Shown here piece by piece: positions 5,023 through 34,595 of a stretch of DNA of 60,000 bases; the first letter of the stretch is position 1; each line of letters opens with the position of its first letter. The notes below the pieces were generated by a model, which searched no databases, had not been told where the DNA came from, and was given only the letters and a program-made list of their open reading frames with translations. The position numbers and the translations under genes are program-made. This DNA is from Bolinopsis microptera (Eukaryota > Ctenophora > Tentaculata > Lobata > Bolinopsidae), in NCBI RefSeq assembly GCF_026151205.1, contig NC_087082.1, positions 4,011,408 through 4,071,407 of the forward strand. Reading direction: 5' to 3'.

Positions 5023-6534
5023 GGAAAGGAAGCAGTTCTAACGAGCTCTTCTCAAACGCAGGGATGTGTCTTGTGAACTCGGCTAGTATATATGAAACAT
5101 TTGTCATGGAGTTGTGGAGGGAGTTATGTGCCTCGCCGGGCTAAAGTAGTGGATGACCTTGCTGTACGGCAAGTTAAACAAGGATCTGAAACTACTAGGT
5201 TCCGTACAGACTCAACTCTGCACCCGTGTCAATATGTTCATTATATGCAAGCCTCTTGATTTATAATCACCGAGTCTAGTAATTGTTTAAGAGAGTTCTC
5301 TGGCAGTTACGAAACTCGAGAGACTGTGGGATACTGAAGGGAAAAAAAGCAGTTCTAACGAGCTCTTCTCAAACGCAGGGATGTGTCTTGTGAACTCGGC
5401 TAGTATATATGAAACATTTGTCATGGAGTTGTGGAGGGAGTTATGTGCCTCGCCGGGCTAAAGTAGTGGATGACCTTGCTGTACGGCAAGTTAAACAAGG
5501 ATCTGAAACTACTAGGTTCCGTACAGACTCAACTCTGCACCCGTGTCAATATGTTCATTATATGCAAGCCTCTTGATTTATAATCACCGAGTCTAGTAAT
5601 TGTTTAAGAGAGTTCTCTGGCAGTTACGAAACTCGAGAGACTGTGGGATACTGAAGGGAAAGGAAGCAGTTCTAACGAGCTCTTCTCAAACGCAGGGATG
5701 TGTCTTGTGAACTCGGCTAGTATATATGAAACATTTGTCATGGAGTTGTGGAGGGAGTTATGTGCCTCGCCGGGCTAAAGTAGTGGATGACCTTGCTGTA
5801 CGGCAAGTTAAACAAGGATCTGAAACTACTAGGTTCCGTACAGACTCATCTCTGCACCCGTGTCAATATGTTCATTATATGCAAGCCTCTTGATTTATAA
5901 TCACCGAGTCTAGTAATTGTTTAAGGGAGTTCTCTGGCAGTTACGAAACTCGAGAGACTGTGGGATACTGAAGGGAAAGGAAGCAGTTCTAACGAGCTCT
6001 TCTCAAACGCAGGGATGTGTCTTGTGAACTCGGCTAGTATATATGAAACATTTGTCATGGAGTTGTGGAGGGAGTTATGTGCCTCGCCGGGCTAAAGTAG
6101 TGGATGACCTTGCTGTACGGCAAGTTAAACAAGGATCTGAAACTACTAGGTTCCGTACAGACTCAACTCTGCACCCGTGTCAATATGTTCATTATATGCA
6201 AGCCTCTTGATTTATAATCACCGAGTCTAGTAATTGTTTAAGAGAGTTCTCTGGCAGTTACGAAACTCGAGAGACTGTGGGATACTGAAGGGAAAGGAAG
6301 CAGTTCTAACGAGCTCTTCTCAAACGCAGGGATGTGTCTTGTGAACTCGGCTAGTATATATGAAACATTTGTCATGGAGTTGTGGAGGGAGTTATGTGCC
6401 TCGCCGGGCTAAAGTAGTGGATGACCTTGCTGTACGGCAAGTTAAACAAGGATCTGAAACTACTAGGTTCCGTACAGACTCAACTCTGCACCCGTGTCAA
6501 TATGTTCATTATATGCAAGCCTCTTGATTTATAA
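5023..6534. repeat. Tandem array of about 4.8 copies of a 317-bp unit
   Basis: The anchor AGCAGTTCTAACGAG recurs at 5031, 5348, 5665, 5982 and 6299, exactly 317 bp apart. The last copy breaks off at about 6534 after TTGATTTATAA. Copies differ at only a few bases: AAAAAAAGC for AAGGAAGC in unit 2, and ATCTCT for AACTCT and TTAAGG for TTAAGA in unit 3. Each unit has a TATA-like TAGTATATATG and a short hairpin CTTGC-TGTACG-GCAAG. There is no ORF of note and no Sm-type T-run, and it does not look like 5S rRNA, U1-U6 or 7SK. It ends 180 bp before DNAAF11. It could be a satellite, an amplified regulatory segment or an unknown ncRNA gene array. Confidence 0.95.
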
Positions 6535-6712
6535 CAAGCTTCGGTATCGATGATGAGCTTTAGCTTTACACCCTCAAGTCTCTGATACAAGTTAAGCACG
6601 GATGATGTATTTTATTTGTAGATACTGATTAAAGACACCAAATGCTTTTAACTTTTGCTTTTATTAACCATTCGTAACTTTCACATTAAATTTTTAACGT
6701 CCACCATCTAGG
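6535..6712 (+). promoter_or_regulatory. Leader region of DNAAF11 with acceptor-like site
   Basis: A pyrimidine-rich stretch ends in CTAG at 6708-6711, one base before the ATG at 6713. This looks like a splice acceptor, either of a 5'-UTR intron or a trans-splice site. No TATA box is evident in this short interval. Confidence 0.4.
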
Positions 6713-8056
6713 ATGGTTTTTATAACTGAAGGACTAATCCGGAAACGAGCTGAACACAATGAAGGTTTGATATACTCCCTTGAAGAAATCAGTTTACATC
6801 AGAGTGACATCGAGAAGATTGAGAACATCGACAAATGGTGCCGTGATCTGAAAATTCTTTACCTTCAAAGCAATCTGATCGACAAGATCGAAAACGTCGG
6901 AAAATTAAAACAATTGGAATACCTCAACCTAGCCTTGAACAATGTTACTAAAGTGGAAAATCTTGAAAAATGCGAAAATCTAAAGAAACTAGACCTGACC
7001 GTCAATTTTATTGCAGAGCTAACATCAATAGAGTCTCTTCAGAGTAATGGGTTTTTGCAAGAAATGTACATGACAGGCAATCCTTGTGCTAAATTCGACA
7101 ACTACCGCGAGTACGTGATTGCGACTCTTCCGCAAGTTGAACGGTTAGACGGAATAGAGGTCACCAACACTGAAAGACTCGAAGCAATGCAAAGTTTGAA
7201 ATCGATCAGAGAATCTATCGTGTGGCAGCAGAAAGACTACTTCATTAAGCAACAGAAAACTAAAGAAGGTGCTGGTGGTCGTTGGTACACTGACATTGGG
7301 GCAGAGGCACCTGAAACAGCGACCATCGAAGAGTTGAAACCGGACAGTGAACTTACGCCAGAGGAAATAAAGCAAAAAAATGATGCGTTTTGGAAATCGC
7401 CGGCTGAAAATACTCCGGAGACAAGGAAAGCAATACACAAAAAGTTGGAGGAGGAAAAGGCTGCAGTTGAGGAACAAAGAAAGGGGATAAGAACGAATAA
7501 AGTTCCTAAAAGAGAAACTGTTCTGGAACGTGAAGGAAAAAGATTAAATCTGAATCAAGCGAAGTGGCCATTTAAATTGGACGATTCGACTAACGAGAAT
7601 TCAGTAAAGTTAGAAGTAAGCATACCAAAATATCTTTCTACTCATAGCGTCGATGTTGATGTACAGCCGACATACGTAAAGATAGTAGCAGAGAACAGGC
7701 ATTTCCAGCTTGTGTTAAACGATGAAATATGTCCAGATAAAAGTTCGTGTCAGCGGTCTCAGATGACAGGTATTCTAGTGTTGACCATGCCTACAGCAAA
7801 ACAGACAATTGTTCCTGAGAAGGTCAATAACAAACCATCCTTCAGAGATGAAAACTCTAACTTAGTTAAGAAAAAACCCTCAAAGACGACTGGTTATCTC
7901 GAAGTTGATCCTTCTAAAAAGTCAAATCTTGACTTCAGTAACATTGTTAATGATTCATCAAAATCCAGACCGATTGTGGCCAAACGTACCGTAGTTAAAG
8001 AAAAAGTTGTTTCAGCTGATTTTGTTGATGATCTTGATGTACCTCCTCTGTTTTGA
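6713..8056 (+). CDS. DNAAF11: DNAAF11/LRRC6, dynein axonemal assembly factor
   Basis: A 447-aa uninterrupted ORF; human LRRC6 is about 466 aa. The N-terminus (ITEGLIRKRAEHNEGLIYSL) and the leucine-rich repeats at about 20-130 follow the family closely, including IDKWCRDLKILYLQ and NLALNN. An LRR-cap segment with GNPCAKFDNYREYV follows. The middle is charged and carries the family RWYTDI motif. A p23/CS-like domain lies at about 285-360, with DVDVQPTYV and FQLVL. This cytoplasmic factor works with HSP90-type co-chaperones to preassemble outer and inner dynein arms before transport into motile cilia. It is the first of four ciliary genes in a row. The ATG fits the family N-terminus and lies one base after an acceptor-like CTAG. 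The lack of introns is unusual for this gene in animals. Confidence 0.96.
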   Translation: MVFITEGLIRKRAEHNEGLIYSLEEISLHQSDIEKIENIDKWCRDLKILYLQSNLIDKIENVGKLKQLEYLNLALNNVTKVENLEKCENLKKLDLTVNFIAELTSIESLQSNGFLQEMYMTGNPCAKFDNYREYVIATLPQVERLDGIEVTNTERLEAMQSLKSIRESIVWQQKDYFIKQQKTKEGAGGRWYTDIGAEAPETATIEELKPDSELTPEEIKQKNDAFWKSPAENTPETRKAIHKKLEEEKAAVEEQRKGIRTNKVPKRETVLEREGKRLNLNQAKWPFKLDDSTNENSVKLEVSIPKYLSTHSVDVDVQPTYVKIVAENRHFQLVLNDEICPDKSSCQRSQMTGILVLTMPTAKQTIVPEKVNNKPSFRDENSNLVKKKPSKTTGYLEVDPSKKSNLDFSNIVNDSSKSRPIVAKRTVVKEKVVSADFVDDLDVPPLF

Positions 8057-8334
8057 TTTTTTGGGTCTATTTGAGGATTGATGACTTCAGATTGGTGTGT
8101 TATGGGTCTAATTTGAAAATTTAGTGTTTTGACTGGGTGTTAAATTGTGTATTTTCTGATTTATTTCATGTTTTATTACTTCTTCTTGATTTATTCTGAA
8201 TCTCACCTTATTCAAGTTATAAATAATGAGATCTTCATCTATTTTTAATATTTCGTGGCATTCATTATTTATTTTTAGATTCGAATATATCTACTGTGCC
8301 AAGCATATTCTAATAACATAACCTCTCAGTGAAC
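8057..8334. other. Spacer between DNAAF11 and CC2D2A
   Basis: A 278-bp AT-rich gap. Just before the CC2D2A start is an acceptor-like CCTCTCAG (8322-8329), five bases ahead of the ATG. No separate promoter element is recognisable, so read-through transcription cannot be excluded. Confidence 0.4.
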
Positions 8335-11300
8335 ATGATAGAAGTACAAAGACCAGAAACTCAGCTGTCGCTCAAGCAGCAACTAGCGCAGCGGCGCCGG
8401 GACCTCAATGTCACCACCGACACCATAGCCAGTGAAGCAGCGCTGCGCGAGAAGGAGATACTGGAGGACTCGTTATCGAAATCACGTAGCTTAGAAAGCA
8501 GTAAACTTGTAAGCAGTATGATGCAGAGACGACAAGTGCGAAAACAAAACTTAGATCAGAGTATGGGTAAAAGTATGAGAGGTGATGGAGAAATTCCTAG
8601 TATACCCACAATAAATGTGGACGATCAAGATTTGGACAAATCTCAATTGAAACCTCTATCTTCCTCAGTAAATCTCAGTACATCGATACGGGATCGGTTA
8701 AAGGACAGAGCTAAGATTCAGCAAGATTCTGCCATGCAGAAAGAACCAGCTAGAAAGTTGCGTGGTCTGAGGAATCGTGACTTACAAACGAGGTTTGATA
8801 TTGAGTCTGAGGACAGCGCGCCTCCTGAAGAAAAACATTCAAGGGATGATGAAATAACTGAAGATCATACTGACTCAACTAACCAATTGTCTACATCCCT
8901 ACGCTGGAAGATGTTGGCTAAACGGGGCAAAATTGCTGAAGAACCGGAAGAGAAAATAGACGAGTACTCTTTTTTTACAAAAGTCTATGAACCCGTTGGT
9001 GGACACGAGAAACAGCCCAAGAAGTCAGCCCTCATAATACCAGAAGTCGACGACACGAACTTTGCCCAATACGACAGTTTGTACGTGGTCACAAAGCCAG
9101 AGTTACCGAAGCACAATGCTTCCCCCATATTGTTTGCCCCCACCTCGGCACCTGCTGAAACAGTGACACTACACGGTGGTGCACCCTGCTTTCTTGACGA
9201 TGAGGGGATTTATGTTGGAGAACCACCGGGGGTTAACTCTAGTAACTGGAACAAAATGGAGCAACGGCTTATCCAAACTGAGAGTGGGAAGAAGTGGTTT
9301 GGTATTGATGGAAATATGATTGTAGCTCCGGATCCTCTGAAGCAGATCTCCTCCCGTCCCATGATAGATTTCGACGTGGACCCCACAATTCAGAGAACCG
9401 CTAAATGTATCTCTCTTTCTCAGACTGGTAAGTTTATTGGGGAGAGTAGTGTAAATCAGTTGTCTGTTAGCATCACCCAGGTACAATTCTCTCATCATCC
9501 TCTCTTTTCAAAAGAACACGTGCTTGTGTCACAGCTGCGCGACTTACACATGCAGTACACCAGCCGCCAGCGCCACAATCTCGCCTCCCACCTGGGAGAT
9601 CGGCTTCAGTCGCTGCGGAACGCAGTTCAGGAGTTGCAGTACACTCTGGGAGCCAAACCTTGGGATATGAGCAAACCATTCAACAAGGACTGTGTTGCAA
9701 ACCTTGAGGATTACAGCGAGGAGATCAGGAATGTAAGAGAAATGTGGGATATTGAGTGTATGAAGGATAAAACCATGATAAGAACCATTCTCACTGTTTG
9801 GAAAGAGATAAAAACCCTTCGTGAAACTCAGGGATTTATTGCAACAAATGCAAAGATTCTAGTTTACAAAGAGCAAACTAACTTTGCGAAGGAGGACAAA
9901 GAATGGCAGAAACAGATCAAGAGCACATTTGAAGAGAGCAAAGAGGAAATGATGGCTGAATATGACGAAAAAATGAAAATTCACTACAACGAAATGGCTG
10001 AATGGAAGATGCAAGCTCGAGAAATAAAGAAGAGGATGAAAGCTAGTAAGAGTAAGGAAGTAATAACAGAAGAAGGCGAGGAAGCTACGACGGGGGTTTT
10101 ACCTCCAAAACCAGTTGCTCCAGCCAAACCCCAGACTAGCAGTTTGTTAAACGAAATTCAGAGCAACGCTGTTAAATGTAGGAAAGTTCCTGGGGATCCC
10201 ATTCTGAGAATTGAGCTGACCCACACTGTGACCATTACGCCGATAGAAGAGTGTCCACCAGTCGAGCAGAAACGTCGTAAAGATATCCTGAAATCCTCGT
10301 GCTACGGCAAACTTTTCTACAACAACTCTGAAGTAACCAGGTCACCAAATATCAATCTCACTTCTGATTTCACTCTGAATTTTGGGGAGAGTGTGTGTTT
10401 GCAAGTTGTTCACTGGCCGGAAAGCATCAAGTTTGAACTTTGGTCCATCTCAGAGAAGCTTTCTGAAATATTCCTTGTCATACCACCAAATGATAGACAT
10501 ACCGGAAATGCTGAACTGGATTCTTTGGAATTCAGTTCGAGCCACAAAGTTACATATCCTAACTCAACCGCTGTTGGGAGTGGTGTTCCAGAATCAGTCG
10601 ATGGAAAGATTCTCCTGACCTCAGGAAAGTTGTTTGGATCCACTGCATGGGTTAAAGATGCGAGTGGCAAGATCCTCGCTCCTGTTCGTCACGACATTGC
10701 TGCAACATTCGGCCGTGCTGATCCGATCCATGCTATTGGCGCAAGAAGTTTGAACGACATGGAGAAAGTAATCCAATGGATTAGCGAGGCTAAACTGGAC
10801 CCAAACGATCCCCGAAATGCTCCCTTGCTCCATCTCATGAACAGAACCAGGAAAGATGCTCCAGGAGATACAAAATACTTCCGTCTTGACCACCTGGAAA
10901 AGAGCACATATTTCGTATCTACCGAGGAGTTGGAAAACGACCGCAGATTCAGCCTCCTGTCTCTCCGTAACCAGGGTGTCCCGGAATACAAACCCATGAA
11001 AATGGTGCCCATGTACTCCTCCGAGGTGACCCATTTCGAGTATGCTCAGACGGAGAAAGAAGAGAAAGTGTCGCTGAAAGAGGAGGGTGACGTATTTGAG
11101 CACCACCGAGCAGCAGTGGTACGCTTCATGCAGGAGATACAGGAGAAGATCGCGTCCAGGTCTCGGAAAGTCAGACCGATGTTGGAGCTTTCTGATGTTG
11201 TGGTTGAGGATCAGGTTCCTGACATCAGCACCCTTGGAAGAAGCATCGCGAAACTTCTAGAACCAAGACATCCACTGAGACCACAGCGGAAAGAGAGAAA

Positions 11301-13038
11301 GAAAGTCACAAACCAAGCTGTGGGTATCACTAAGGTGGATCTCCTCGTTAACGTTTCTCAAGCTCAATGTCTACCTATCAGAAGTAGGACCACAGCTTCG
11401 GAGCAAAGGATGACTCTCGATCCAAACACCGCTAGATCCACTATCCAACTCAGACCGTTTGTGGAGGTCACATTCCAGAGACAGAGCAGTGTTACTCACG
11501 TGGCAGACGGTCCCAATCCTCACTGGAACCAGGAACTTGTCCTTCCGTTAAACGTTATCAATAATGAGTTCTCCGCAAGCAATCTCAGAGAAATAACTGA
11601 CATCGTTTACTTCAACGTCTTCGACGAGATCATAGTTGATATTCTGGCAGATGACCGATTGAGAGACACCAACATTCATCAGAGACTGGAGAGAAGGTGG
11701 CTTGGTAGTTTCCAGATCCCATTCTCAACCATCTACATCAACTCTCGGATCGAAGGAAAATTCAAGCTCAACGTCCCCTCAACACTGATGGGCTACAACA
11801 AAGACCACGGCTTACTCCCTCATCTAATGACATCTGACATGTTGCTCTCCCAAACCAGCCTGACGGGTCAAACCGACAAAAACAGTTATCTAACCATATT
11901 CATAACAGTGGAACCACCACTAGCTCCACACCCAGCTCTCAGGGAGGTCTTTGATACGAACGAGGAGCCCAGGTTGATCAGAGCAGCTGCAGCTTGGGAG
12001 CTTCTCTACAACGGTGAACACGGATCACGAAGTGTCAGGAGTTTAGTTACTGATGTTAATGGTAAGAGTGTGTTCATCACGCGGTATATCGGACCTCAGA
12101 ACCCTCCTAATGAACTTGTTCCGGAGGATAGGAATATGAGGAAGAGTCTGGTGGAACTGCAGAAAATAGCCAAGTTCGTGTCCTTGATACCATACTATCA
12201 GGACAGTATCGCGTTCTCTGGATCATGTGATATCTGGGCGACATCTGAGCTCTTCCTCAAGATGCTAGCTGGAGACGAAGAGGAACACGCGATCTTGCTG
12301 TGTAACTATTTTTTGTACATGGGTATTGACTCGTACATTATAAAAGGTATAGGTATCCCAGAAGGGGAGACCTGTTACGTGTTGACCAAACAGATGGAGG
12401 GTAATGTTTTGTGGAACCCCTCTACTGGAGACTATCACCCTCAGTCACGACCTTATCACTCTCTGGTCAGCGTTCACTTCTGTTTTAATAATGAGAATAT
12501 CTGGGCCAATATTCAACCGTACGATGATCCGGGCAGGTTAGATTTCAACTTCAATAACACTAAAAACTGGAAAACTTTCTTCGCTGGAAAAGAAAGCCCC
12601 AAACTGTCCACAGTTCAAGTTTCCAGACTGGATTACACCGAGACAAACGTACCCGCCATCCAGACTCTGGAGAGTAACCTGGAGAAGATGCTAATGGACA
12701 AGATCATGGAGTGGAGGGAGCGTCACGTGACCCGCTGGAACAGACACTGTCGTGTTGTGATGCGCCAACTTCTACCCCAACTGGAGATGGGGAGTCTGTC
12801 CGAGGAGGACCAGGTGAGCGCCATGTCCGAGATAATGAGCTCCCATAATGTCACTGGGTTTCCTATTAACATGAGATACTCAGATGCCAGCACTATTATT
12901 GAGACTGTGTACAGTACTAATGTCCATGTTGCTGAGGACCCTACTGTCGAGTTTGCGCTGACTGTTTATATTCACCCTTATGCTAACAACGTACTCTCTG
13001 TTTGGATATATGTGGGAACACTCACCAAGAAATATTGA
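8335..13038 (+). CDS. CC2D2A: CC2D2A, ciliary transition-zone protein, single-exon
   Basis: A 1567-aa ORF; human CC2D2A is about 1620 aa, so this is essentially full length. The ORF is open from a GTG at 8329, but the first ATG is at 8335. The N-terminal half is charged and disordered, with coiled-coil segments at about residues 360-620. A C2 domain lies near residues 1000-1150, including RPFVEVTFQ and GPNPHWNQELVLPL. The C-terminal third is the transglutaminase-like/CEP76-type region: CDIWATSELFLKMLAGDEEE, HAILLCNYFL, then RHVTRWNRHCR and a terminal VEFALTVYIHPYANNVLSVW. These match vertebrate CC2D2A closely. The protein belongs to the MKS/B9 module of the transition zone and gates entry to the cilium; human mutations cause Meckel and Joubert syndromes. 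The vertebrate gene has dozens of introns, and this copy has none in the coding region. Confidence 0.97.
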   Translation: MIEVQRPETQLSLKQQLAQRRRDLNVTTDTIASEAALREKEILEDSLSKSRSLESSKLVSSMMQRRQVRKQNLDQSMGKSMRGDGEIPSIPTINVDDQDLDKSQLKPLSSSVNLSTSIRDRLKDRAKIQQDSAMQKEPARKLRGLRNRDLQTRFDIESEDSAPPEEKHSRDDEITEDHTDSTNQLSTSLRWKMLAKRGKIAEEPEEKIDEYSFFTKVYEPVGGHEKQPKKSALIIPEVDDTNFAQYDSLYVVTKPELPKHNASPILFAPTSAPAETVTLHGGAPCFLDDEGIYVGEPPGVNSSNWNKMEQRLIQTESGKKWFGIDGNMIVAPDPLKQISSRPMIDFDVDPTIQRTAKCISLSQTGKFIGESSVNQLSVSITQVQFSHHPLFSKEHVLVSQLRDLHMQYTSRQRHNLASHLGDRLQSLRNAVQELQYTLGAKPWDMSKPFNKDCVANLEDYSEEIRNVREMWDIECMKDKTMIRTILTVWKEIKTLRETQGFIATNAKILVYKEQTNFAKEDKEWQKQIKSTFEESKEEMMAEYDEKMKIHYNEMAEWKMQAREIKKRMKASKSKEVITEEGEEATTGVLPPKPVAPAKPQTSSLLNEIQSNAVKCRKVPGDPILRIELTHTVTITPIEECPPVEQKRRKDILKSSCYGKLFYNNSEVTRSPNINLTSDFTLNFGESVCLQVVHWPESIKFELWSISEKLSEIFLVIPPNDRHTGNAELDSLEFSSSHKVTYPNSTAVGSGVPESVDGKILLTSGKLFGSTAWVKDASGKILAPVRHDIAATFGRADPIHAIGARSLNDMEKVIQWISEAKLDPNDPRNAPLLHLMNRTRKDAPGDTKYFRLDHLEKSTYFVSTEELENDRRFSLLSLRNQGVPEYKPMKMVPMYSSEVTHFEYAQTEKEEKVSLKEEGDVFEHHRAAVVRFMQEIQEKIASRSRKVRPMLELSDVVVEDQVPDISTLGRSIAKLLEPRHPLRPQRKERKKVTNQAVGITKVDLLVNVSQAQCLPIRSRTTASEQRMTLDPNTARSTIQLRPFVEVTFQRQSSVTHVADGPNPHWNQELVLPLNVINNEFSASNLREITDIVYFNVFDEIIVDILADDRLRDTNIHQRLERRWLGSFQIPFSTIYINSRIEGKFKLNVPSTLMGYNKDHGLLPHLMTSDMLLSQTSLTGQTDKNSYLTIFITVEPPLAPHPALREVFDTNEEPRLIRAAAAWELLYNGEHGSRSVRSLVTDVNGKSVFITRYIGPQNPPNELVPEDRNMRKSLVELQKIAKFVSLIPYYQDSIAFSGSCDIWATSELFLKMLAGDEEEHAILLCNYFLYMGIDSYIIKGIGIPEGETCYVLTKQMEGNVLWNPSTGDYHPQSRPYHSLVSVHFCFNNENIWANIQPYDDPGRLDFNFNNTKNWKTFFAGKESPKLSTVQVSRLDYTETNVPAIQTLESNLEKMLMDKIMEWRERHVTRWNRHCRVVMRQLLPQLEMGSLSEEDQVSAMSEIMSSHNVTGFPINMRYSDASTIIETVYSTNVHVAEDPTVEFALTVYIHPYANNVLSVWIYVGTLTKKY

Positions 13039-14035
13039 TTATTAATGTAAGTGGGTGTGTTGTATTTGATGATTATTTTGTTTTGTATGTATTCAGTATT
13101 GATATATTAGTTTTCTAGTGCTGTGGTTGGTTTGAATAATATTGGTTATGACTCTGAGTGTTCTTTTAAGCTTTTTTGTACTAAATGTGCTAATAATGCT
13201 GCGATTTTCTTGCCGTAAAATATTATGAATTTTACCATAAATCGGCTAACTATTCTTAAGTTTTACCAATGTAAGTGTTTAGTACGATTTCTTTTAACAC
13301 AAACCTTTAATATGACAAATGCCGTGTACACTGTACAGGCTCATTATTTTAAATGGTTTCCATATATGGTATTAACTTAAACTGCTGTATATAATCCAGG
13401 TTTTATTGGTGGTTTTAAATACACCCTTTTAGGGAAAGTCGTAAAGACCCTACAGTTGACTCTGATTTAAGAAAGCATGGTTACAAATGCGAAATGACAA
13501 AGTAACAATTATAAAACTGATTAAATCTAAATTGATTGAATCAAATAATTAGTAAATGTTATAACATTCAACTTGAGCTGGGATGTTAGTGAAAATATGC
13601 AAATTTTTTTGCTTGACAATCTATAGAATGAGTTAGCAGATGCTTGATATGTTGATTGCTTTTTGCTGACATAGTGATATGTGTTAATACTTGATTTATT
13701 GAGTTTTGCTGAGGACTGATTTCGTTATGCTCCGTTTTTTGACTTACTATAACGTATTATTATTTGATATTATTCAGACTATGAAATTTATTTACTTACC
13801 ATGATGTATTATTGATCTCTCTTATTGTATCTTAATTAATGACTTTGTATTCTATTAAAGGGATTAAACCTTTCCATATTGATTTGTCTAAGCGAAGTCA
13901 ATCTTCAATTGGACTACAATCTGTAACTTGTACATCGTATGTACAATATGTACATCGTACACTGTATATTATATGTCTGTCATCATACATTGCATTACCC
14001 TCACTGACTCTAATGAACCCTCTCCCAGGCATAGA
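13039..14035. other. Intergenic region CC2D2A-CFAP45
   Basis: About 1 kb of AT-rich DNA with no supported exon. Near 13930-13965 there are interleaved GTACATCGTAC/GTACAATATGTAC palindromic words of unknown meaning. An acceptor-like CCTCTCCCAG ends at 14028. Confidence 0.4.
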
Positions 14036-14044
14036 ATGAAGTAA
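14036..14044 (+). promoter_or_regulatory. Two-codon uORF overlapping the CFAP45 start
   Basis: ATGAAGTAATG: a minimal uORF (Met-Lys-stop) whose TAA shares its last A with the CFAP45 ATG at 14044. Termination at this spot could favour re-initiation or leaky scanning. If a leader is joined at the AG of 14027-14028, the uORF stays in the mRNA. Confidence 0.5.
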
Positions 14045-15931
14045 TGAATATGTCACTAGCCTCCCGAGAATCTGTCCGGTCGACAGGGAACGTGAAGAGC
14101 TCACGTTACCGAACGGTCAGCCGGTACAGTGGTGCAGATGAAACTCTGTTTGGTTCCCCTAAAAAGGGCGCCAACAAGGCCGGTCCTTCCAACCCTGCCC
14201 CCAGGAAGGAGGAAGTGTCCGTCATTACAAAAGATCTGATCAGAAAGATAAAAGTTCCAGCAAAAGATCCGTCTGAACTGAGTATTGTTCTGACTAGCGG
14301 TGAGTATGCCCGGATCAAAGGGGCTGCCAAAGTACTGACTCCCGCGGAGAAAGCAGCACGTGCACAAGCAATCAAGGCGATGAAGGAGGAAGCACAGGCT
14401 GCATCTCAGGACAGGAAGAACTACATGACAGAAATGGAAGCACAGAGATTAAAACGAGAGAAACCTTCTGATCTAGAAAGAGAAGGAAAGGACAAGAGCA
14501 GAGTTCTGCTTGCTAAAGCAGAGGAACAGCTCAACGAACAGGAGGACGAGATCAAGAAACTGAACGAGATAATCCTGAATGCTAAATGTCACGCAATCAG
14601 AGACGCTCAGTTAGACGAGAAGAAAGAAATTAAGGACGAGCTAGCTGAAGAGAACAAGCGACTGGACGAGATGATGGAGATTGAGAGACTGAGGGCATTG
14701 CAGCAGTATGAACAAAGGGAACTAGATCGCCAGTACAAGCAGGTCGAGGGAGCTAACATCATCAAAACACAGATCAACGACAACGAACAGAGACGAATCC
14801 TGGAGGACGAGAAGCGGGAACAAGAGAAACTTGCTATGTTGAGATATCTTGAGAAACTCCAGAGAGAAGACATCAACCAGTTGGAGAAGAAGAAGGAGAG
14901 CCAAAAGAAGATCATGGCAGATGTCGCCAAGGCAAACGAGGAAATAAGGAGACAGAAGGAGGAACGAGTCCGACAGGAGAAATTCCAGGAGACCAAGGTG
15001 ATGGAATATTTAAAGGAGAAAGAGGCGAGAGAGATCGCATACCAGGCTGAGTTGGAGAAGCAAAGAATTGAGAAGGAGAAAGAGATCGCTCACATGAGGG
15101 CACTTCAAGAGAGGGCTAAAGATCAGCAGGCTGAGAAGGATGCTCTTAGAGCTAAACGTATCCAGGAAGAGGTACATTGTTTTTCACTGTCCCTGCATTT
15201 TTCAGTTTCCTTTTAGTTGTATTTTTAGTAAAATGTAAGGAACTTTGTCATTTTATTGATTTTTCAGTTCATTTTTTGATGCTTAGCAAAGATTACCTAA
15301 AAAAGTAGCATATTTATTATAAATGTTTCACTCTGTTCCCAGGTTGAGAGAGATCAGAGGAAGAAAGATAAGGAGACAGCCGTCAAGAAGGCTCAGACAG
15401 AGTCACAGCTGAGGCGTGCACGAGAACAACAGGTTTGAAGTTAAATCTTTTCGAATAATTCAACCTAGCCTACCTGATTAACTCATTTAACTTATGATTT
15501 AGTGAAATTTAATCAAATTTAATAAGCCAAAATCTCAACGTTGTCTGTTACAGGTACAAATGCAAGAGCACTTCCTTGCAATTGAGGCTCAGCGTGAGCG
15601 ACAGGAATTCGAACGAGTTCTCGCCGTTCAACAACAAGGACAGAAACAGGAAGAGGTCAAGGACAGTAACGCTCGTTCGAAGCGTCTCCAACATGCAGAA
15701 GAAGTACGAAACCAAATCAAGGAGAAGGAGTCCGAGCTTATCCAAGCGAGACAATGCTTCTTCGAGGAGGGAATAAAACTTGATCAGGAAGCACAGGAGC
15801 GTAGAAAGCGACTGGATGAGATCAAGAAGAAGAAGTTGGAGGAGCTTCAAGGAGCTGGAGTACCGTCCAAATACGTTAACGAAGTGTCACGTCGTGCCAT
15901 GAAACCTCAGACCTCTCTTATTACCCACTAG
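14044..15931 (+). CDS. CFAP45: CFAP45 (CCDC19), doublet-microtubule inner protein, 3 exons
   Basis: Exons are 14044-15171, 15343-15432 and 15554-15931, with phase 0 at both junctions. They encode 531 aa; human CFAP45 is about 551 aa. After a basic N-terminus (RYSGADETLFGSPKK), the segment VITKDLIRKIKVPAKDPSEL and the following LTPAEK region match the family. From about residue 100 to the end the protein is almost unbroken charged coiled coil. It closes with GAGVPSKYVNEVSRRAMKPQ, a good match to the conserved C-terminus. CFAP45 lies along the inside of the ciliary A-tubule and supports flagellar beating. A methionine follows at codon 3, so the exact start could be 14044 or 14050. Confidence 0.95.
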
Positions 15932-16476
15932 AACACGGACTGCTAGATTTGTGGAGTTCAATTGTTTCTGTTCAGCTCGGGACTTGGGTGTTTCGAATAG
16001 GTGATGTGGTTGTAGATAGACCGGTGTTTTGTGCAAACTTTACGCGCCAAACAATTTTATGAGATGTATTCACTGTTCGCTATAAGTTACTTTCTGTGGT
16101 ATAAAATACTAATTCAGAAAAAACTTTGCATGCAAATTTTCTGGCCTGGTGCTTTGTGAACACTTATGGTTACTAAGATTGTAAATATTTACCATGTTTT
16201 TCGTACGACCGTCCATTCTTTTAATATCATTAACCACCAAAGAAATGCCCTGGAATTATAAGCATGTGAGTCGTGTAAATGTGCTGTATAACTTAATGAA
16301 TTACAATGGTTTTATGTTTTTAATGATTGCGTTTCAATAACTTGAACAGCAATCAAGTCTTTCAAATATAACTTATTATGAGTAGATGGATCTCGTTTCT
16401 AATCTGATCGCAATCCTTCTAATAGTAACAGAATATTATCAGTTGACTAATCAAATGTCCTTATTTAGTAGTAAGG
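15932..16476. other. Intergenic region CFAP45-EFHC1
   Basis: About 545 bp, AT-rich, with no supported exon. An acceptor-like CCTTATTTAG ends at 16468, eight bases before the EFHC1 ATG. Confidence 0.4.
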
Positions 16477-19400
16477 ATGGGTGATTCAACAGCACTACCT
16501 TTCCTCCCGGGAAACACCTTCACTGACCCAACAAGAGTCAACTTTCACAGGTAAATATTAGTTCTGTTCGAAGTCACTTAGTGAACCTAGCCTGTAGTGC
16601 ACGTTATCTGCCCACTTTTCAGTAGATTTTAGCTTGACCATTGACCATCCCACTTTGGCTTAAGCTCTGTGAAGATGATATTATACATTATTTAATTTCT
16701 CTATCTTCAGGGCTCAGACGATGACCTACAAGAACGGATTTGCTATCCCCAAAACCGGCCCCATCGCGGGACTGACAGAAGCAGAAATTGATGAACTTGC
16801 CAACTTACAACCTACTCTTACTTACGGCAAGGCTAAAGCTGAACCTCCTCAAGACTTTGTACCTGCTCACGTAGCTTTCGATAAAAAGGTAAGACATTTA
16901 TAGTATTCATAGTATACTATAGTATGTGCATGTTGATTTTGCTATCGCTCATTCTCTGATTATTACAGATTGGTTTACACTAGACGTGTTTGTCTAAATT
17001 GGATAGATTTCTAAGATGTTACCTCTAAAAACTGAGCACTAAACTTTAAACTTAAATCATCAGGTCCTGCTGTTTAACGCGTACTTCAAACAAACCCTGA
17101 ACGAATCAGACAAGGAATACTACAGAGTCAGACCTGTCAAGATCTACTACTATCTTGAGGATGATAGTATCAGTGTTGTGGAACCAATTGTTGAGAACAG
17201 TGGCATTCCTCAGGGTAAACTTATCAAGAGACAGCGACTACCCAAAAATGATCAAGGTAAGGACTAGGAATATGAAATTTGGCATGTTTCTTTTGCGAGT
17301 GATTTCATTTACAATTCTGAATGACAATTGCTCTTCAGCACTGTATGAAAAGTGAGTCTGACGCACCATGTTGTGTTTCACGTGTAAAATGCTAGTGCAT
17401 GCTATTTACAGAGAATCTGAAGTTTAAAATAGAAAGATGACTGCTGCTCCAACTTTTTGTAGCGTGGAGCTAATTTCTGTAGTATATAACATGAGCAAAC
17501 ACAACACACCTTCTAACAGGAGAGCACTGGCAGTGGAAAGATCTGAATGTCGGCAACGATGTGGTCTTCTACGGCAAAACATTCCACATCAACGACTGCA
17601 ACAACTACACCAAAGATTTCATGGCAAGCGAGGGAATCATGCTTAATGCCCCTGAGGGATGTCCAGCGGATCCCTACACCCTCTCCCGAAAAGAGCCCCA
17701 ACATAGCTACGTTACACCTCCCACATTCGACAAACTCAAACAGTTCATCGACTTGGATCGTCAGGTGTTGAGGTTCAGTGCTGTTTGGGACGATAGGAAC
17801 AATATGTTTGGAGAAATGAGACCTTATACTCTGCACTTCTATAGAGTTGATGATACTATTGAGATTAGGGAACAGAGGCAGCCTAACGATGGACATGATC
17901 CTTTCCCTGTGCTTATTGGACGAAAGAAGGTTCCCAAATCTAGATCTAATATTCCCAGTAAGTTTCTTCAAAAATTTTAGTTATTTATTATCTCATCCAA
18001 TAGTATGTATCTTCTATCAGAGTATCATCAATATGATACTCCCGGGTGATGGTGGCGCAACTTTGTTTTAACGCCAGATAGTGAATTTGGTATTTATAGC
18101 TATGTTTTTCACTGTCACGTGTCAAAACAAACTTGCGCCTTTATCCACCACGTCTATCGCAAACAATTCAAAATCTGTCAAAGAATTGTATTATCTCCGT
18201 ATAAAGCTCCCAATATTTCCCATATGTTGTACATTGTACACTTTACCATGTAAACGATGCTATGTTATCGTTTCCATGGATACATCATACAGACAATATC
18301 TGTTCAGTAATACGATACAGTAACTTAAGGACAAGCCCACTTATTTCTTTTACCTTAATTTGACCAAAACCCATAATCATGGGTAGAGTGTACCGCTGCC
18401 AGTGTCTCTCTTTTCCAAACAAAAGGAAATGATATAATTAATTTGAATAACCGTCCGAAAATGCAAATTGATACCGAGAATGAAATCGGTCGCTCGCTTT
18501 TTCCAATCAATAAGCTTTATATTACAATTCGTAAGCCGTGATCGAATGGAAAAAGCGAGCGACCGATTTCATTCTCGGTATCAATTTGCATTTGCGGACG
18601 GTTATTCAAATTAATATCATTTCCTTTTGTTTGGAAAAGAGAGACACTGGCAGCGGTACACTCTACCCATGATTATGGGTTTTGGTCAAATATCATCTCT
18701 TTTTGATTATAATGTCAGGGTACTTTATAAAGTCGAAATATAAACTAATATCTTCATTAATAAGGAGGAAGTTTCAACAATTTCGAAATTTTTCCTTTAA
18801 AAACATTTCCTTGTGTTTAGGTAAGCATATCGGTCGATCACTGACTGAATATGCCACTTAATACTAATTCAAGTTGGCATTAAATTCATTTATAATGACA
18901 TTAAACTGTCGTGGCAAAGCAGAATTTGTTGGAAATCACGAATGAGCAAAATTCTCACCTTTCGCACGTGCAAACTTTGAGCGGACGTTGCGTGCGCATC
19001 CAATATTGAATCGCCGTAAATTTTTGCATGTAATTGTTTTATATATAGCTTGATAAGCACGCAAAGTTTCAAAGTATTTCAAGAAGAACTGTAATCACAA
19101 CGGCACTCTAAAGTTGACAGAAAATGACGAAAACAGCAATTTTCAGTGATTTTAGCAATTTTTTATAAATTTGGGCGTGTCCCCACGTGTGCAACTTTTC
19201 GATTTTTAACTTTAAAACTAGCCTAATGCACAATTTATACCTATAGGAAGCAGAACTGAGCTCCACAACCTAAGGCATGGCCCAACACCAGAGAATACTA
19301 AATCGCAAAATTGACGTTTTTATAAAATAATTCTTCAAAAAAGCACAAACTTCAATGACGAATATCTTTATGAAGGAGCAAGCTAGAAAAACTTTCCGGT

Positions 19401-22400
19401 AGATTTTCAGAATGCTTGAACAATTATCTAAGGTAAAAATTTCCTCAGATTTTGAATACAATTACTTTTTAATGGTGTAAAATCATTTTTAAAAGTTATT
19501 ACTTTGTCAAAAATCAAGTTTTAAAAACGGTTAACTTGATGACGTCATCAAGGGGTGTTCATGAGGTCAAATAATTTGTTTATACAATGTAAACTAAAGT
19601 GTAAACAATTATTTTCAAGACCTGTGGTCGGAAATGGCTGTATCTTTTATACTTTTGAATCTATGGACAATTAAATACAGGCTACAATTGACTGGCAAAG
19701 CGTCTATCCCTGAATATATATGTATATATTATATAGATAGATATCACGACAATCTGTCGTAAAACAGGGGTTCTAGAAAACCCACTTCCCGATGTTCCTG
19801 AAACCTGAAACTTTTTTTGCAGTCGATTTGGTCAACGTCTAGACGCCCTGAAAAATTTCAGATCTCTAACTCGATTTTAACATGGTTTTTAAGGCACCTG
19901 AATATGGCGATTTTGGGTTTTTTACCGAATTTCGTATAACAGTGCTGGCGAGTATTTTATGCAAATTTCTTAAAAATCTCAACATAACTATTTTTTATTC
20001 CTGTCATCTTTGACATCAAATTAGAATGTTTTGAACTAAAAATAAATCTGCTGAACGACTTCCGATGATTCTTAATGCCTGAAAAACTCCGCCGCCTCCG
20101 GCCGGAGTGCACGCTTCGCGTGCACGAAAGAGGCTTGTAACGTGTACCAAAGGGGGTATAATAGTAAAGGGGGTGTAATAGTAAAGGGGGTATAATAGTA
20201 AAGGGGGTACATAGTATACCCACAATAAATGCACCGGTCGTGCTTGCCAGCACTGTGATCACGGCTATTGCCGTCAAGGTAACTGTCGTGGTAACAATAT
20301 TTACCCCACAGGCAACTTCCCCTGCGCGGTGATGGAGATTTCCGAGCACGAAATAACTGAATGGCTGACCGAGAAAGACCTGAGAGTGGGCGAAACTGTC
20401 GTCATTATGGACCGACCATTCTTCTTGTACGATTGTGACGACTTCACTCAGAGTTACTATCAACAGAAATACAATCTCAACTTCAACAGGGTGCCAGTTG
20501 AGTTAGGTGAACGTAAGGTTGAGGTGAAACGTGAGATTCCTCCCTATAACGGATTTGGAAGTCCCCAGGATTCCAAACAGAACTGTTTATCATTGATTGC
20601 TCAGCCACCCAAGAAAGATGTCATGAAAATGCTGGAAAACGATTTGAAGATTTTGAGATACGCAGCAGTAATGGTAAGTGATAGTGGTAATCTTGGTTGA
20701 TTTATGGAAACAGCGAGTTTATTACAGATATCACATGACAATAATATCTTGAGGTAAACCTAAGGTATTTTAGTCGCATATGAATTATGATGGTATGATT
20801 GTCATGTTATCCAAGCGTCACTCACGATCTTTAAACCGCGTCCCTTTCACAAACTTTAATATGGATGTGTTGCATCTGAGATTTGAATTTAGTATCTTAA
20901 ATTCCCTAAAATTTCAGGAATCTCCCAACCCGGAGGATAAAAACAGGAAGTTCATTATTTCCTACAGCCTTGCTAAAGACGAAATGCAGATATACGAGCC
21001 ACATCAGAGGTACCCTTTCCTTCTAATCGATCACGTACAATTATGAATCCAATTTATGTACTCTTAAACATAAATTGTGGCTACATTTGAATTTATCAAT
21101 TCTCTACATTTGGATACTTGAATATTTATAATACTCCATTTCAGAAACGCTGGCATCATCGAGGGCAAATTCCTAGAATACAGCCAAGTGCGAAAACCTG
21201 GAAGTTCTATTGACAATCCTGAATATTATACTCCTGCTGACTTTGCCATCGGAGCAACCATCGAAGTATTCTCTCGGAAGTTCAAAATCGCAGGTATAGC
21301 AAGGGTCGGTGGAAATAATAACGAAACGGTCTACAGACTATTGCTAGTTTTGCGTAGCTTATTATGTAGAAAGCATCGATGTAAAACAGCGTGTTCAACG
21401 CGCGCTAGCTTTTGCGCTCGTTACCATGGTTACAAATGTAATTTGATAAAATCAAAACAATCCAGTGAAACTATTACGCAATAACAAGATACCCCATAAT
21501 ATTTGGACGCCTAATTAATATTTATGTAAGTAATGACAAGACAGATTCAAGAGTGGATTACGTAATTCTCAATTATATTAGTTAGAGTATGTATGCATCA
21601 TATTTCATTTATCGTGAGTCTAGAGCTGAGGTAAAACGTTTTTTCGAACGCAACTTATTTAACTTAATATTTCAGATTGCGATCTGTACGTTCTGAAGTA
21701 TCTTGAAGCTAATGGCTCAAGATTCCCTGCTGCTACCATCGAGTCAATCAGAGCTATCCACGCCGATAAATTGTGGTGAGTCCTGTTTTATGTTCGTTAA
21801 TTTCAGAGTTGATTTAGAATTCATAAGTTTGATTGCACTTAGAAAATAAAATTAATGATGATATACTACATTTTGTTTTAAACTATACCATCTACACATT
21901 ACATCATCATCTGGCTCCTTAGCCATGAGTCCATGACGAGAGTTTTAAAAATAAAACATATCACCCCTCAAACAACATGAACATCCCAAGAACAACGATC
22001 ATCGATAGTTTTACAACAAGACCAAGGATATTCTCTCATCACCAGAATTTCAATCAAATCACTAAAGTTGCACTAGTGTTTGCGGCATTTGATTATGACT
22101 TTAAAATTTTACAGAATAAGGTCATCATTAAAGTGATGAACAAATCACTCAGAGGAAAGACGGAGTCACTGAAAATCGCAGAATATCAGGACATAACATT
22201 GAAGGACTTTCCACACTACTTTGATCTTATTAATAACGTAGAAAACTGTTTTCAAAACGCTTTTCTGGGATAATTTATTGCAAATTAGGCTTCTTTTATA
22301 AAAACGAGCGGATGATATATTTTCAGTGAGCTGATTTTTGAGAACTTTATACTTTTCTCCTATGATTTGCTTTTTGCACACCTTTTAGGTCAAATTCCAA

Positions 22401-23060
22401 TTTATACTGTAAAGAATGCTGTGTATTAATGTGTGTATAGTTGTTTTACATAATCGGAAAATACGTGTCTGAACATTATATTGTAATCTCATACTCTCAA
22501 GACAACATAATATAATGAATATGTCACTTCACAGTTCACACCACTTCATTCACATTTCACTCAGTGCGCAAGAGAGCGAGGATCAGTCGGAATCAAATGA
22601 TAATTTCGATCAAAACGAGGATGATATAGCCGAAACGATAAAAGCAGTGATGAAAAAGAATAATTTTGAGCAGCATGCCAACATGCAGCAAGCCTTTCTT
22701 CACCTGGATGAGGACCGGTCTGGGTTTATCGACAAGGAAAAGTTGATGAAGACCCTTACGGATAATTTTAATCTCCAAGTTCCGGGCCATGTTATTGACA
22801 AGGTATTTAGGAGAATATATGTATTTTTTTGATGAGGTGAGATTTCTTTAGGTCTACGTTACTACTTCAATGGGTCTACCATTTTAACTTACTTTAAGAC
22901 GAGAAAATGATTGTGCACCAAATAAACATAAAAAGATACTAGATAAGACCAAAACATCACTCATTTCACTCACATTTCACTGTTACAGGCTCTGAAGAGA
23001 TGTGGGGCTAGCACAGAAGGGCATATAAGCTACGTGGACTTTTGTAAATTGTTCACTTAA
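16477..23060 (+). CDS. EFHC1: EFHC1/EFHC2 family protein: three DM10 domains plus EF-hand, 10 exons
   Basis: Exons are 16477-16550, 16711-16888, 17064-17256, 17520-17957, 20312-20673, 20918-21009, 21145-21293, 21676-21775, 22565-22802 and 22989-23060. All are GT-AG with continuous phase, giving 631 aa; human EFHC1 is 640 aa. DM10-1 spans about 85-190 ([18 protein letters not shown]). DM10-2 spans about 228-350 ([26 protein letters not shown]). DM10-3 spans about 410-520 ([19 protein letters not shown]). An acidic linker leads to one EF-hand loop at about 577-588 ([13 protein letters not shown]), with all the acidic positions and the Gly needed for calcium. EFHC1 is a microtubule inner protein of motile-cilium doublets, related to Chlamydomonas Rib72. 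The length favours EFHC1 over EFHC2, but the two cannot be separated by eye. Intron 4 (2.35 kb) is far longer than the others because of inserted repeats. Confidence 0.95.
18359..18690. mobile_element. Fold-back (inverted-repeat) element in EFHC1 intron 4
   Basis: The left arm 18359-18505 and right arm 18547-18690 are inverted copies. They differ only by a 3-bp indel and about one substitution, and are separated by a 41-bp spacer. The element has no coding capacity. This is typical of a MITE or fold-back transposon, or of a recent local inverted duplication. I could not define a target-site duplication by eye. The transcribed intron could form a hairpin of about 145 bp. Confidence 0.92.
19535..19552. 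promoter_or_regulatory. 18-bp perfect palindrome with CRE core
   Basis: CTTGATGACGTCATCAAG is self-complementary over 18 bp and is centred on TGACGTCA, the consensus cAMP-response/ATF site. It lies in EFHC1 intron 4. It may be an intronic control site or simply part of a repeat. Confidence 0.45.
20085..20216. repeat. GC-rich hairpins and 17-bp tandem repeats in EFHC1 intron 4
   Basis: A TCCGGCCGGA palindrome is followed by the hairpin GTGCACGC-TTC-GCGTGCAC (20107-20125). About four copies of AAAGGGGGTATAATAGT follow (20149-20216), the last one diverged. The abrupt GC shift inside AT-rich intron suggests the end of an inserted non-autonomous element. It stops about 95 bp before exon 5. Confidence 0.7.
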
Positions 23061-23545
23061 AGTAAATCTGGGTGTCATCGTTATCTTTTATTTCTTTTTG
23101 AGCCGGCTCTTATTTGATGAAAATATCTTGATTTTATGAGATGATGCATGATCCAATGTTATGTTTTATATTAGACCAACCAGCCAATTTTTGACTTCAT
23201 AGTTCATAATGTGATATTTCCTACTACAGAAGACGAAGCAAACACTTGATTGAGAATGAAATTAATAAAACAATAATTTATGCAAAACGTCTGCCTTATT
23301 CTTTTAAAACGGGATTTACACTTTAGCATTAAATAATATAAGTAAAATTTATCAATTGTTATACAGTTTATCGTACACATAATGTGCAAAAGCAAAATTT
23401 GCAAAATGGGAGGGTTAAAGTAATTTATCAAAATTCGTCAATTTAAATTAAACCTATCAAAATGTTGAAGAAAATAGCCCCACAGAATTTAAGTCAGCTC
23501 TGCAAACTTCAAAAAACCTTTAAACATGAACCGGTCCATGTTGTG
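23061..23545. other. Convergent 3' region
   Basis: Gap between the convergent EFHC1 (plus) and adaptor-like (minus) genes. It should hold both 3' UTRs. It is AT-rich, with several AATAAA-like words, and I see no exon. Confidence 0.4.
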
Positions 23546-26500
23546 TCACGAAACCTGTTCGGATTTTTCTTTTCTTCGTTTAGTAAAATCTCTTATGTTC
23601 TCATAATCATGGCTGAGAGCCAGCGGAGACATTACCGACCTCGGTGGTCTTCGCTGAGGTTTCAGAGGAGAGGATCCTGATGAAAATGAGAGAGGATCCT
23701 TCGAGAGTCTGGTGGTGGGGGTTTTCTGCCATTGTTCTGGAAGAACATACTCAGAGTGACCAGATGGGCTCGCCAGTTCCAGTTTTGAGGGGGTGTAAAA
23801 GAAGTGTTTCTTTGAGTATCTGACCATGGTATCGTCAGGACTGGAGATGGAGGAAGTTGGAGAATCAAAAACTGAGGAGTCTGCGGTTATTTCAGAGGGA
23901 CTGGGGCTGTGGACGCCGGATCTGGCCGTCAAGGAAGCGAAGCTGGTTCCACTTGACAAAAGCGAATCGTACAAGCTCTCCTCGCTAATATGATCCTCTT
24001 CATCAGAAACACTCCCTCCACAACGAAGATACTCTGATAGCCTTCTGAATCTGGACTTCTTCGTCCTGTTTTTCAGAACTCTCTGGTATCTTGAAATGAG
24101 GGAGACTTCATCGGAAGTCAGGATAGTGCTCGGATTACCGTACACCTCAGGCCGATCTGAAAAACCGGAGTCAGTCGACCGGTCATTCTCAGACCAAAGT
24201 TCGTCGATCCTGGCGTAGAGTGGCTCCTCGTATTTGCTCGAGGAAGAGCTCATAAAAAGTTTAGATCTGTCTTTGAATATGACATATTTTCCTGGTTGTG
24301 AGGCATGGCTTTCAGTAGAAGTGGTGGTAGAGGAGGGTTGGTCGCTGTAGTCAGGTTCTCGAGGGAGGGGTCGTCTCTTGATCGGGGACTGGCTGAGGTT
24401 CAGCTTTTCTATTTGTGGCAGCATCGTCTCATAGTCTGATTCAACCTGTAAGAATAGGTAGATTTTAGATGGTTGGAATGTACATCATGTGACTAACTTT
24501 AATTAAGTGACTAATCAAAATCACTAACCTCGCATTTTTGCACCATCATCAAATACAACTCATGCAGGATTAAAACCATTTTCAGAAAATCGGATCTTCT
24601 TTTTATCACCTAAAAACCGCAAATATATACAAATCATCTATAACACATGAGCAAGCATTTAGACGAACCTTAGAAACGGCAGGAGAACTTTTCCATATTC
24701 TTGTGGTGACTGTCCTCCTTGGAGAGGGATGTATGGGATATTCGTTGGTTTGCAGTGGCGAATGGCTCTTTGAAACCCCCATCGTATCTAGGACCTCCAG
24801 TAGGTTGCTTCTACATTCATATGCATCAACTCTGTCCTCAACGGAAACACCTAACAAATGAATGGGTTATAGTTAAACTATGGGATATGGAGGGGATGTG
24901 CAGCTGTGGGAATGGTGTTAGCAGCGCGCCAGCTATCATCACCTAAACATGTGGCTGTGGTGGGGTGTCAACTATAGAAATCGGAAAAGTGTTAAACGAG
25001 GAAATTTCTCAGGCGTCTGTCATCGTTAACTGTGCGGCTAGTTGAGAGCATGAGTTATGTGACTTATCGGGTAATAAAGCTTCCCTTCATCAGAATAGGA
25101 GTTCGATTGGGAACTGATTTCATGCGGCCCGTGCTGGACACTGGTGAATGGTGGAATCTCGTGCCGGTGGCAGCTTTTGATACATAATGCGACTGTGTTG
25201 AAGCTTTATAAAAGTTGTTATCTTCAAATATCAGTCTACACATCTCAATGCAGATAAAATATGGCAGCTAATCAAACTTGCAGTTAACTTTAAAACTATC
25301 ATTGATTTCATCAACGGCACTTGTGTTCAAAACCAACAAGGACCGTGTAGCATTTTACATGTCAAAGGGTTCGTTCACTAATATTATAGTTATAACGTAA
25401 GCAACGTAAAAAGGGAGGTGGTTTGAAAATGCTTATCAGGTGTAATTTCTACACAATAGCTCTAAAGTATGTGGAGAGGGGGTCTATAATGGTAGAATCT
25501 CATAGAATATGACGATCTCACATTAAAGTTTGTCTTCATCATAGACCATAGTACTGAATTACATCCATCTTATTGAAACAGTTTTAGCATCAAAGAAACT
25601 ATATTGCAATTGGTCAGATAAGTCACATCGAGCTAAAATGAAAAATCCGACTTCATAGTTCATCACATCAAAGAAGTTAACCTGATCCCAGAAATCAGAG
25701 TGTATCGTGATGGCACCAAATCAGAATCTATCTTGATGGCACCAAATCCAAATATGACTAGATCGCAGTTTATCAGGCTTTGCCTGGATCACAATCATAT
25801 CTGAAGTTCATCATGATCAAGTCAGAATCTGTTCGGTATACAATAAAGTACAATAAATAGTCAAGGAAGACAAGGAACCACGTAGCCTATCACCACATAC
25901 AACGTCTCGTATAACACAAAGGGTACAAATACAACTGTGCAGGGGTCAGATAACTATTGTACTTATATAGGAAGTTATCGATCATCGTAGTGGAGAAGTG
26001 ACGGGGCATAAACTGGTGCAAATTGGATAATTACAAGACCTACACGGGATACTGTTACAAACTAAAGCGTAACGCCATGGTTAGGATAATCTTAGATATT
26101 TATTAAATCATACAGATAATTCAACACAAATTCGCATCATGAATACTATATTGTGTATAGTGTAAGCCCAAAATAGCAATTGGAATTTTCTACAAAGAGT
26201 GAGGCCCTCAGGGATCGTTGTAAAACCTACAGTGCAAGTGTACAGGAAAAATTTACATTTTAATATTCCCTTCGATCCAGCAAGAAACTAAGAAAAACAT
26301 TACACTAAGAAGATTGTATAATTCCCAGAGAGTCCAAAAAATCTTAGTATTGCAAATGATCTGTTATTATTACATGTATCTTTATACATCACAATGCTGT
26401 CATTTGATAAAGGTCAGCTTATTAAATCAGGTAGAAACTATAACCTATCATGTGTATAATTATTGGCTAATTTTCCATAGATCATGTCCATGATTTTCAA

Positions 26501-34406: not shown

Positions 34407-34595
34407 TTAGAAGAGTCCGAGCTCCTTTTTGATCTCCTGCTGTTTCCACTCGCTGAAAGTATCGTACTCTCCCCGGGATAGGCCCAGAGTTCTGCGGAAT
34501 TCCGTGTCCGAGATGTATTCCTCCAGTCTGGCCTTGTCAAGCTCTGGGGGGAGAAGCGCTTTGGGACACCTCTGTAGATCCTTTACTCGGACCAT
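34407..34595 (-). other. Alternative terminal exon B, canonical headpiece
   Basis: A 189-nt exon behind the acceptor CTCTCTCCACCAG. It starts MVRVKDLQRCPKALLPPELD and ends with WKQQEIKKELGLF and a stop. The C-terminal LKK-x-x-GLF-type end, which contributes to F-actin binding in villin, is present (IKKELGLF). Confidence 0.88.

Follow-up and report, generated by a model that had tools for sequence, protein, structure and literature searches.

A head-to-tail run of four cilium genes in a ctenophore as a candidate spliced-leader-resolved, operon-like unit

Why would four genes serving a single organelle stand in line on one strand of an animal genome? The question is raised by a 60,000-nucleotide stretch (the window) of the ctenophore Bolinopsis microptera, C11:4011408-4071407 (contig NC_087082.1), taken from a 264.65-Mb assembly of 232 contigs, in which DNAAF11, CC2D2A, CFAP45, and EFHC1 lie head-to-tail, all on the plus strand, between positions 6713 and 23060. 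We take DNAAF11 to act in dynein-arm assembly, CC2D2A in the transition zone, and CFAP45 and EFHC1 as doublet inner proteins. The observation is real and goes beyond local curiosity, and we lean towards explaining the block as one operon-like transcription unit whose messages are separated by a spliced leader (SL). One promoter upstream of DNAAF11 would drive a pre-mRNA running through EFHC1, the spliced leader would be trans-spliced to an acceptor just ahead of each ATG, and four capped mRNAs would arise in concert. What we infer from the arrangement described below is the shared transcript, the presence of the leader on these particular mRNAs, their joint expression, and selection that favours grouping by pathway.

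An initial annotation of the window had named four motile-cilium genes in this order on one strand within 16 kb, and the Pfam matches, matches in the Protein Data Bank (PDB), and exon models bear out the names, the order, and the shared strand (Table 1). In phmmer searches against PDB, the third gene is CFAP45 (9.5e-81) and the fourth matches EFHC1/rib74 (1.6e-72) ahead of EFHC2 (best 1.8e-43). The nine introns of EFHC1 are in-frame and all GT-AG, and the Pfam EF-hand match in its last part is weak (7.5e-5, below the cut-off). CC2D2A, which has one match across the assembly, also carries CEP76 C-terminal domains in Pfam. The ciliary part of the label thus holds for all four genes; the motile part does not, CC2D2A being a transition-zone protein of cilia generally. 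The annotation had also found no non-ciliary gene between the four, and none was recognised here: the one additional open reading frame (ORF; 98 codons, 21977-22273, same strand) sits in EFHC1 intron 8 and has no match in Pfam or PDB, for which reason an acyl-carrier-like identity was dropped. EFHC1 intron 4 contains a nested near-perfect palindrome (18358-18691; arms of 78 nucleotides at 100% and 75 nucleotides at 96% identity), perhaps a young fold-back element.

The arrangement is not unique to the block, because two further ciliary head-to-tail runs and co-directional neighbours of proteasome genes occur elsewhere in the genome. Family searches with PF06565, PF13868, PF14772, PF13870, and PF04712 led to eight unlinked ciliary loci beyond the block; seven served as anchors, leaving out a weak PF04712 match at C7:8613016, and about 10 kb was read on each side of each anchor, with another 10 kb for the one on C5 and 14 kb for the one on C7. 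These two anchors of the seven proved to lie in further head-to-tail runs of ciliary genes (Table 1), the first two gaps of the C7 run being 612 and 496 bp, and across the seven ciliary pairs of all three runs the spacers, counted from stop codon to following ATG, measure 278-1005 bp. If 3-6% of genes are assumed to be ciliary, the probability that two of seven anchors each have four neighbours of which two or more are ciliary is 0.0006-0.008; at 8% it is 0.022. In the C5 run, DRC1 shifts reading frame at L010:2641-2648, either through a small assembly indel or through a very short intron. Many run genes have coding sequences in a single frame, including CC2D2A, DNAAF11, CFAP210, PSMA5, PSMA4, and VDAC.

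As controls we used five proteasome loci in list order, passing over a duplicate and C2:12.917 Mb; throughout the text, the names of the proteasome subunits, MNS1, EFHC2, DRC2, ZFR, DIS3, FAM98, PCBP, and HNRNPK are our own labels on family matches. Fifteen of 20 coding-like segments at the control loci had a Pfam match, and the neighbours that could be named were, locus by locus, tropomodulin and a PIG-L protein; RRP15 and lipin; a DUF2465 protein, an RNB/PIN nuclease, a DZF/zinc-finger protein, and VDAC; and a PCI protein, PEN-2, and two KH proteins, the fifth locus having no named neighbour. None of them is ciliary. All 12 adjacent named pairs at the four loci (2, 2, 4, and 4) are co-directional. 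Five distances were measured at the control loci: 546, 666, 867, and 3375 bp, and one of 760 bp that runs to the first coding segment visible there. Co-directional runs therefore look to be general in this genome, with the ciliary block as one case, although five loci are a small sample. Within each of the other runs, too, most genes seem to share a functional class: cilium genes stand beside one another, and proteasome genes beside other non-ciliary genes, mostly of housekeeping type. A proteasome gene is doubled on C2 (14.176 and 14.664 Mb), as is the EFHC2-type DM10 gene on C13 (7.077 and 7.191 Mb, identical scores, 114 kb apart), each pair being either a recent duplication or an unmerged haplotype.

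An SL-resolved unit would depend on SL RNA genes, and candidates for these are present. The leader pattern of the ctenophore Hormiphora (PMC8527503) gave six genome matches against one for a reversed control, and two of the six lie in tandem arrays on C13 (12.78-12.95 Mb) with units of about 0.9 kb. Both C13 arrays also contain 5S ribosomal RNA (rRNA), with seven Rfam matches, six of them above the gathering score; linkage to 5S was established for these two loci, C13:12.78-12.95 Mb. In four copies, 37-38 of 45-46 aligned columns of the leader are identical to Hormiphora, a likeness to the SL trans-splicing described in Hormiphora and Mnemiopsis (PMC8527503) that favours a ctenophore over a chaetognath, a source weighed on account of that group's SL operons. 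The SL RNA-like gene consists of the leader, a GT donor, a hairpin, a T-rich stretch that we read as Sm-like, and a last hairpin, and one copy folds with z = -5.35. When one copy was used as the query, 40 of 270 candidates were scored and all 40 matched, at C13 12.78-12.95 and 15.24 Mb and at C5 21.34-21.35 Mb. Judged by its sequence, then, the genome has a predicted SL RNA system. Neighbouring units of the SL RNA/5S arrays differ by many small indels, perhaps reflecting assembly error.

Gene starts carry the matching signal. In all 19 genes whose starts could be placed, a YAG lies no more than 12 nucleotides before the ATG; for 614 ATGs outside coding sequence in the window the share is 28.5% (P = 4.4e-11). 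The 19 are made up of nine ciliary genes, eight genes of the proteasome controls, the window's MFS transporter gene, and one ARMH2-like gene, and they include SPAG6, whose start was picked with its acceptor already seen. Among the internal ciliary genes of runs, the count is six of six; RSPH4A/6A, with a YAG 2 nucleotides before its ATG, stands outside the 19. The MNS1-, DRC2-, CCDC113/96-, EFHC2-, FAM98-, DIS3-, and ZFR-type genes were omitted, as were tropomodulin, lipin, PSMB3, PEN-2, PCI, and tubulin, since their starts could not be placed. A YAG at the start together with a 5' untranslated region (UTR) of near-zero length would be the mark expected of trans-spliced mRNAs. This distance test, with its control, replaced an earlier one that used a matrix from 11 cis introns and favoured only two of the four block starts: the acceptors of CC2D2A (11.1 bits) and CFAP45 (8.4 bits) are strong. 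The matrix may misfit trans sites, because CAG is the ending of every one of the 11 cis introns, while several gene starts carry TAG.

Joint control could instead reach the four genes through promoters. In other animals, the RFX/FOXJ1 regulon controls many ciliary genes together, but through promoter sites of genes that are scattered. The initial annotation had proposed looking for shared RFX or FOXJ1 sites, and a search of the regions upstream of the four block genes found neither a FOXJ1 site nor an X-box of the strict or inverted-repeat kind at any of the four. Weaker matches comprise a loose X-box at 8367, against an expectation of 0.47, a pair of half-sites ahead of EFHC1, against one of 0.33, and one match with three mismatches at 14079. 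With weaker matches only, RFX and FOXJ1 were rejected as shared regulators, with the proviso that this animal's motifs may differ. TATA-like matches upstream of the four genes number 3, 1, 0, and 1 (0.6-1.1 expected for each).

Several observations weigh against the operon-like interpretation. Over the seven spacers, AATAAA occurs twice in 4047 bp where 5.3 would be expected, which is no significant depletion (P = 0.10); leaving out the DRC8-RSPH spacer, there are none in six spacers (4.4 expected; 1.4% of simulated sets), but the absence of poly(A) signals was discarded as proof of polycistrony once the seventh spacer was added. The cis-intron matrix gives the DNAAF11 acceptor a weak score of 0.7 bits and the EFHC1 acceptor a modest one of 1.5 bits, and the YAGs at gene starts would equally fit monocistronic genes that are trans-spliced. 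The block's spacers are longer than those given for operons of C. elegans or tunicates in the available parts of PMC7986045. Five of the seven ciliary anchors have no clear ciliary neighbour. They were first judged by eye on a codon-usage scan, after which 19 flanking segments were searched against Pfam, a test that could overlook ciliary genes without a Pfam family; the segments yielded the ARMH2-like match (6.5e-5, below the cut-off) as a same-strand neighbour of the EFHC2-type gene on C13, an MFS transporter adjoining the MNS1-type gene on C2 on the same strand, a reverse transcriptase, FLYWCH, one anchor segment, and weak matches to Ras, Psq, and glycosyltransferase. No clear ciliary neighbour was found in the scan or in Pfam for the DRC2-type gene (C2) or the CCDC113/96-type genes (C9 and C1). 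In the C7 run, DRC8 encloses a fragment of the other strand that resembles a seven-transmembrane (7TM) receptor (L021:5700-6074; 4.1e-5, below the cut-off) and may be a nested gene. Among the controls, an unnamed coding-like segment on the minus strand just upstream of RRP15 would be a counter-example if it is a gene, and the two adjacent KH proteins may be tandem duplicates.

How do these observations bear on the competing explanations? The initial annotation had proposed either a polycistronic unit or a co-regulated chromatin domain. The first idea gains support from the SL RNA-like genes, the start-site YAGs, the two further runs, and the proteasome neighbours; the second, a domain with no shared transcript, would have the four genes separately promoted within one domain of ciliated cells, with the spliced leader merely trimming the 5' UTRs of monocistronic transcripts. 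We regard this as the less probable of the two, an outcome that would be mildly surprising. YAGs also precede the first genes of runs and the window's MFS gene, which lies outside the known runs, spacers of 0.5-1 kb can hold compact promoters, and ATTAAA occurs three times in the 1005-bp spacer, all as such a model would have it; the empty search for strict sites speaks against it, with the same proviso on motifs, and nothing in it requires every named control pair to be co-directional.

Coincidence would mean that four ciliary genes fell by chance into one gene-dense, strand-biased stretch, spotted because many windows were read. Ctenophores have about 16,500 genes, and with that number and the assumed ciliary share of 3-6%, a genome should contain 0.0017-0.027 runs of four on one strand, which is low for one genome; across many scanned windows the expectation is not negligible. 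Animals have hundreds of ciliary genes, a ciliary share of 8% would predict 0.68 runs of four irrespective of strand, and the anchors without clear ciliary neighbours fit chance as well. Sampling just seven unlinked anchors nevertheless gave two more ciliary runs, and we think coincidence improbable. Retroposition, in which read-through RNA of DNAAF11 and CC2D2A was reverse transcribed and inserted, would account for two adjacent, intronless genes that each form one open frame, but there is no second CC2D2A match in the assembly, CFAP45 and EFHC1 retain introns, and single-frame genes occur in other runs too and so are seemingly common in the genome; we give it very little credence. A single SL-resolved, operon-like unit is the account of the block that we hold to be somewhat better than even.

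The surroundings of the block set it off from its neighbours: the genes bounding it on either side are not recognisably ciliary (Table 1). Another ciliary gene may lie near the window on the opposite strand: about 5-6 kb to the left of the window, in C11:4001408-4011407, the minus strand has exons that match an axonemal protein of SAXO1/2 type (PF05217, 1.3e-5, narrowly missing the cut-off). A 317-bp tandem repeat ends 178 bp before the DNAAF11 start. It has at least 163 matches over many contigs and is thus not specific to the block, and its arrays often stop near unit position 244, as if it were an element with internal tandem copies; given its dispersed copies and the lack of any Rfam match in the window, it was rejected as an SL RNA or a block-specific element. 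In the CC2D2A-CFAP45 spacer, a two-codon upstream ORF follows the acceptor-type CAG.

Table 1. Features of the cilium block, its surroundings in the window, and the two further ciliary runs. Positions are those of the window unless a contig is named.
Feature	Position	Strand	Details
DNAAF11 (LRRC6) coding sequence	6713-8056	+	Single open frame, 447 amino acids; Pfam CS_DNAAF11_C 1.6e-34, LRR_9 1.7e-14
CC2D2A coding sequence	8335-13038	+	Single open frame, 1567 amino acids; Pfam CC2D2AN-C2 5.9e-41, CEPT76_peptidase 2.1e-36
CFAP45	14044-15931	+	Exons 14044-15171, 15343-15432, 15554-15931; 532 codons with stop; Pfam TPH 3.8e-50
EFHC1	16477-23060	+	Ten exons; Pfam DM10 4.1e-30
EFHC1 exons 1-5	16477-16550, 16711-16888, 17064-17256, 17520-17957, 20312-20673	+	
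EFHC1 exons 6-10	20918-21009, 21145-21293, 21676-21775, 22565-22802, 22989-23060	+	
Acceptor-like stretch	6698-6711	+	TAG end one base before DNAAF11 ATG; weak against cis-intron matrix
Spacer DNAAF11-CC2D2A	8057-8334	+	278 bp, GC 0.28; AATAAA 0, ATTAAA 0; acceptor-type CAG ends 8329
Spacer CC2D2A-CFAP45	13039-14043	+	1005 bp, GC 0.30; ATTAAA 3, AATAAA 0; acceptor-type CAG ends 14028
Spacer CFAP45-EFHC1	15932-16476	+	545 bp, GC 0.34; AATAAA 0, ATTAAA 0; acceptor-type TAG ends 16468
First AATAAA past the block	23264-23269	+	203 nucleotides beyond EFHC1 stop
CFAP210-DRC1-SPAG6 run	C5	+	PDB 9.9e-42, 1.2e-64, 9.4e-68; spacers 612, 499 bp
IFT46-DRC8-RSPH4A/6A run, with second RSPH4A/6A-like stretch	C7	-	PF12317 2.9e-16 (IFT46), PDB 1.2e-14 (DRC8)
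317-bp tandem repeat	5023-6534		4.8 copies
Homeodomain exon of a plus-strand gene	1287-1472	+	PF00046 8e-10; left of block
Coding-like frame	23549-24484	-	Right of block; no Pfam match
Villin-headpiece exons	34410-35416	-	Right of block
MFS transporter	46350-48005	-	Right of block; in no known run

SL-resolved operons are known from nematodes, tunicates, chaetognaths, and Hydra, and as far as the available parts of two accounts go (PMC7986045; PMC12460157), the block resembles them in its co-directional genes, short spacers, and SL RNA system; it differs in phylum, Ctenophora here. The predicted operons of Trichuris muris have a median intercistronic distance of 517 bp, which the range of the block's spacers overlaps (PMC7986045, in part). 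Chaetognath operons were annotated as genes less than 250 bp apart, a cut that the block's spacers exceed, and are related to nitrogen and protein metabolism (PMC12460157, in part). For ctenophores, the clusters in PMC8527503 may correspond to the runs described here; that paper suggests that the shared exon is possibly a mapping artefact, and the word 'operon' is absent from its text, while the parts of it available to us do not mention ciliary content. Among the listed titles and abstract beginnings of the literature searched, which includes few subscription journals, there were no ctenophore operons or cilium operons. No listed title dealt with clusters of ciliary genes, and the titles and abstract beginnings listed for Mnemiopsis cilia and for SPAG6 with DRC1 and CFAP210 indicated no work on gene order.

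A broader proposal, to which we give slightly less than even weight, is that much of this ctenophore's genome could consist of SL-resolved, operon-like tracts arranged by function, including several separate cilium operons that join assembly factors with transition-zone, transport, and axonemal parts. It has been proposed that ctenophores are the sister group of all other animals. If our reading is true, an early-branching animal would pack the genes of an organelle into units that are transcribed together, a novelty among ctenophores so far as titles and abstract beginnings show. The function of SL trans-splicing would then become testable with existing long-read data, as would the question of whether animals select gene order by pathway, and position alone would supply candidate cilium genes.

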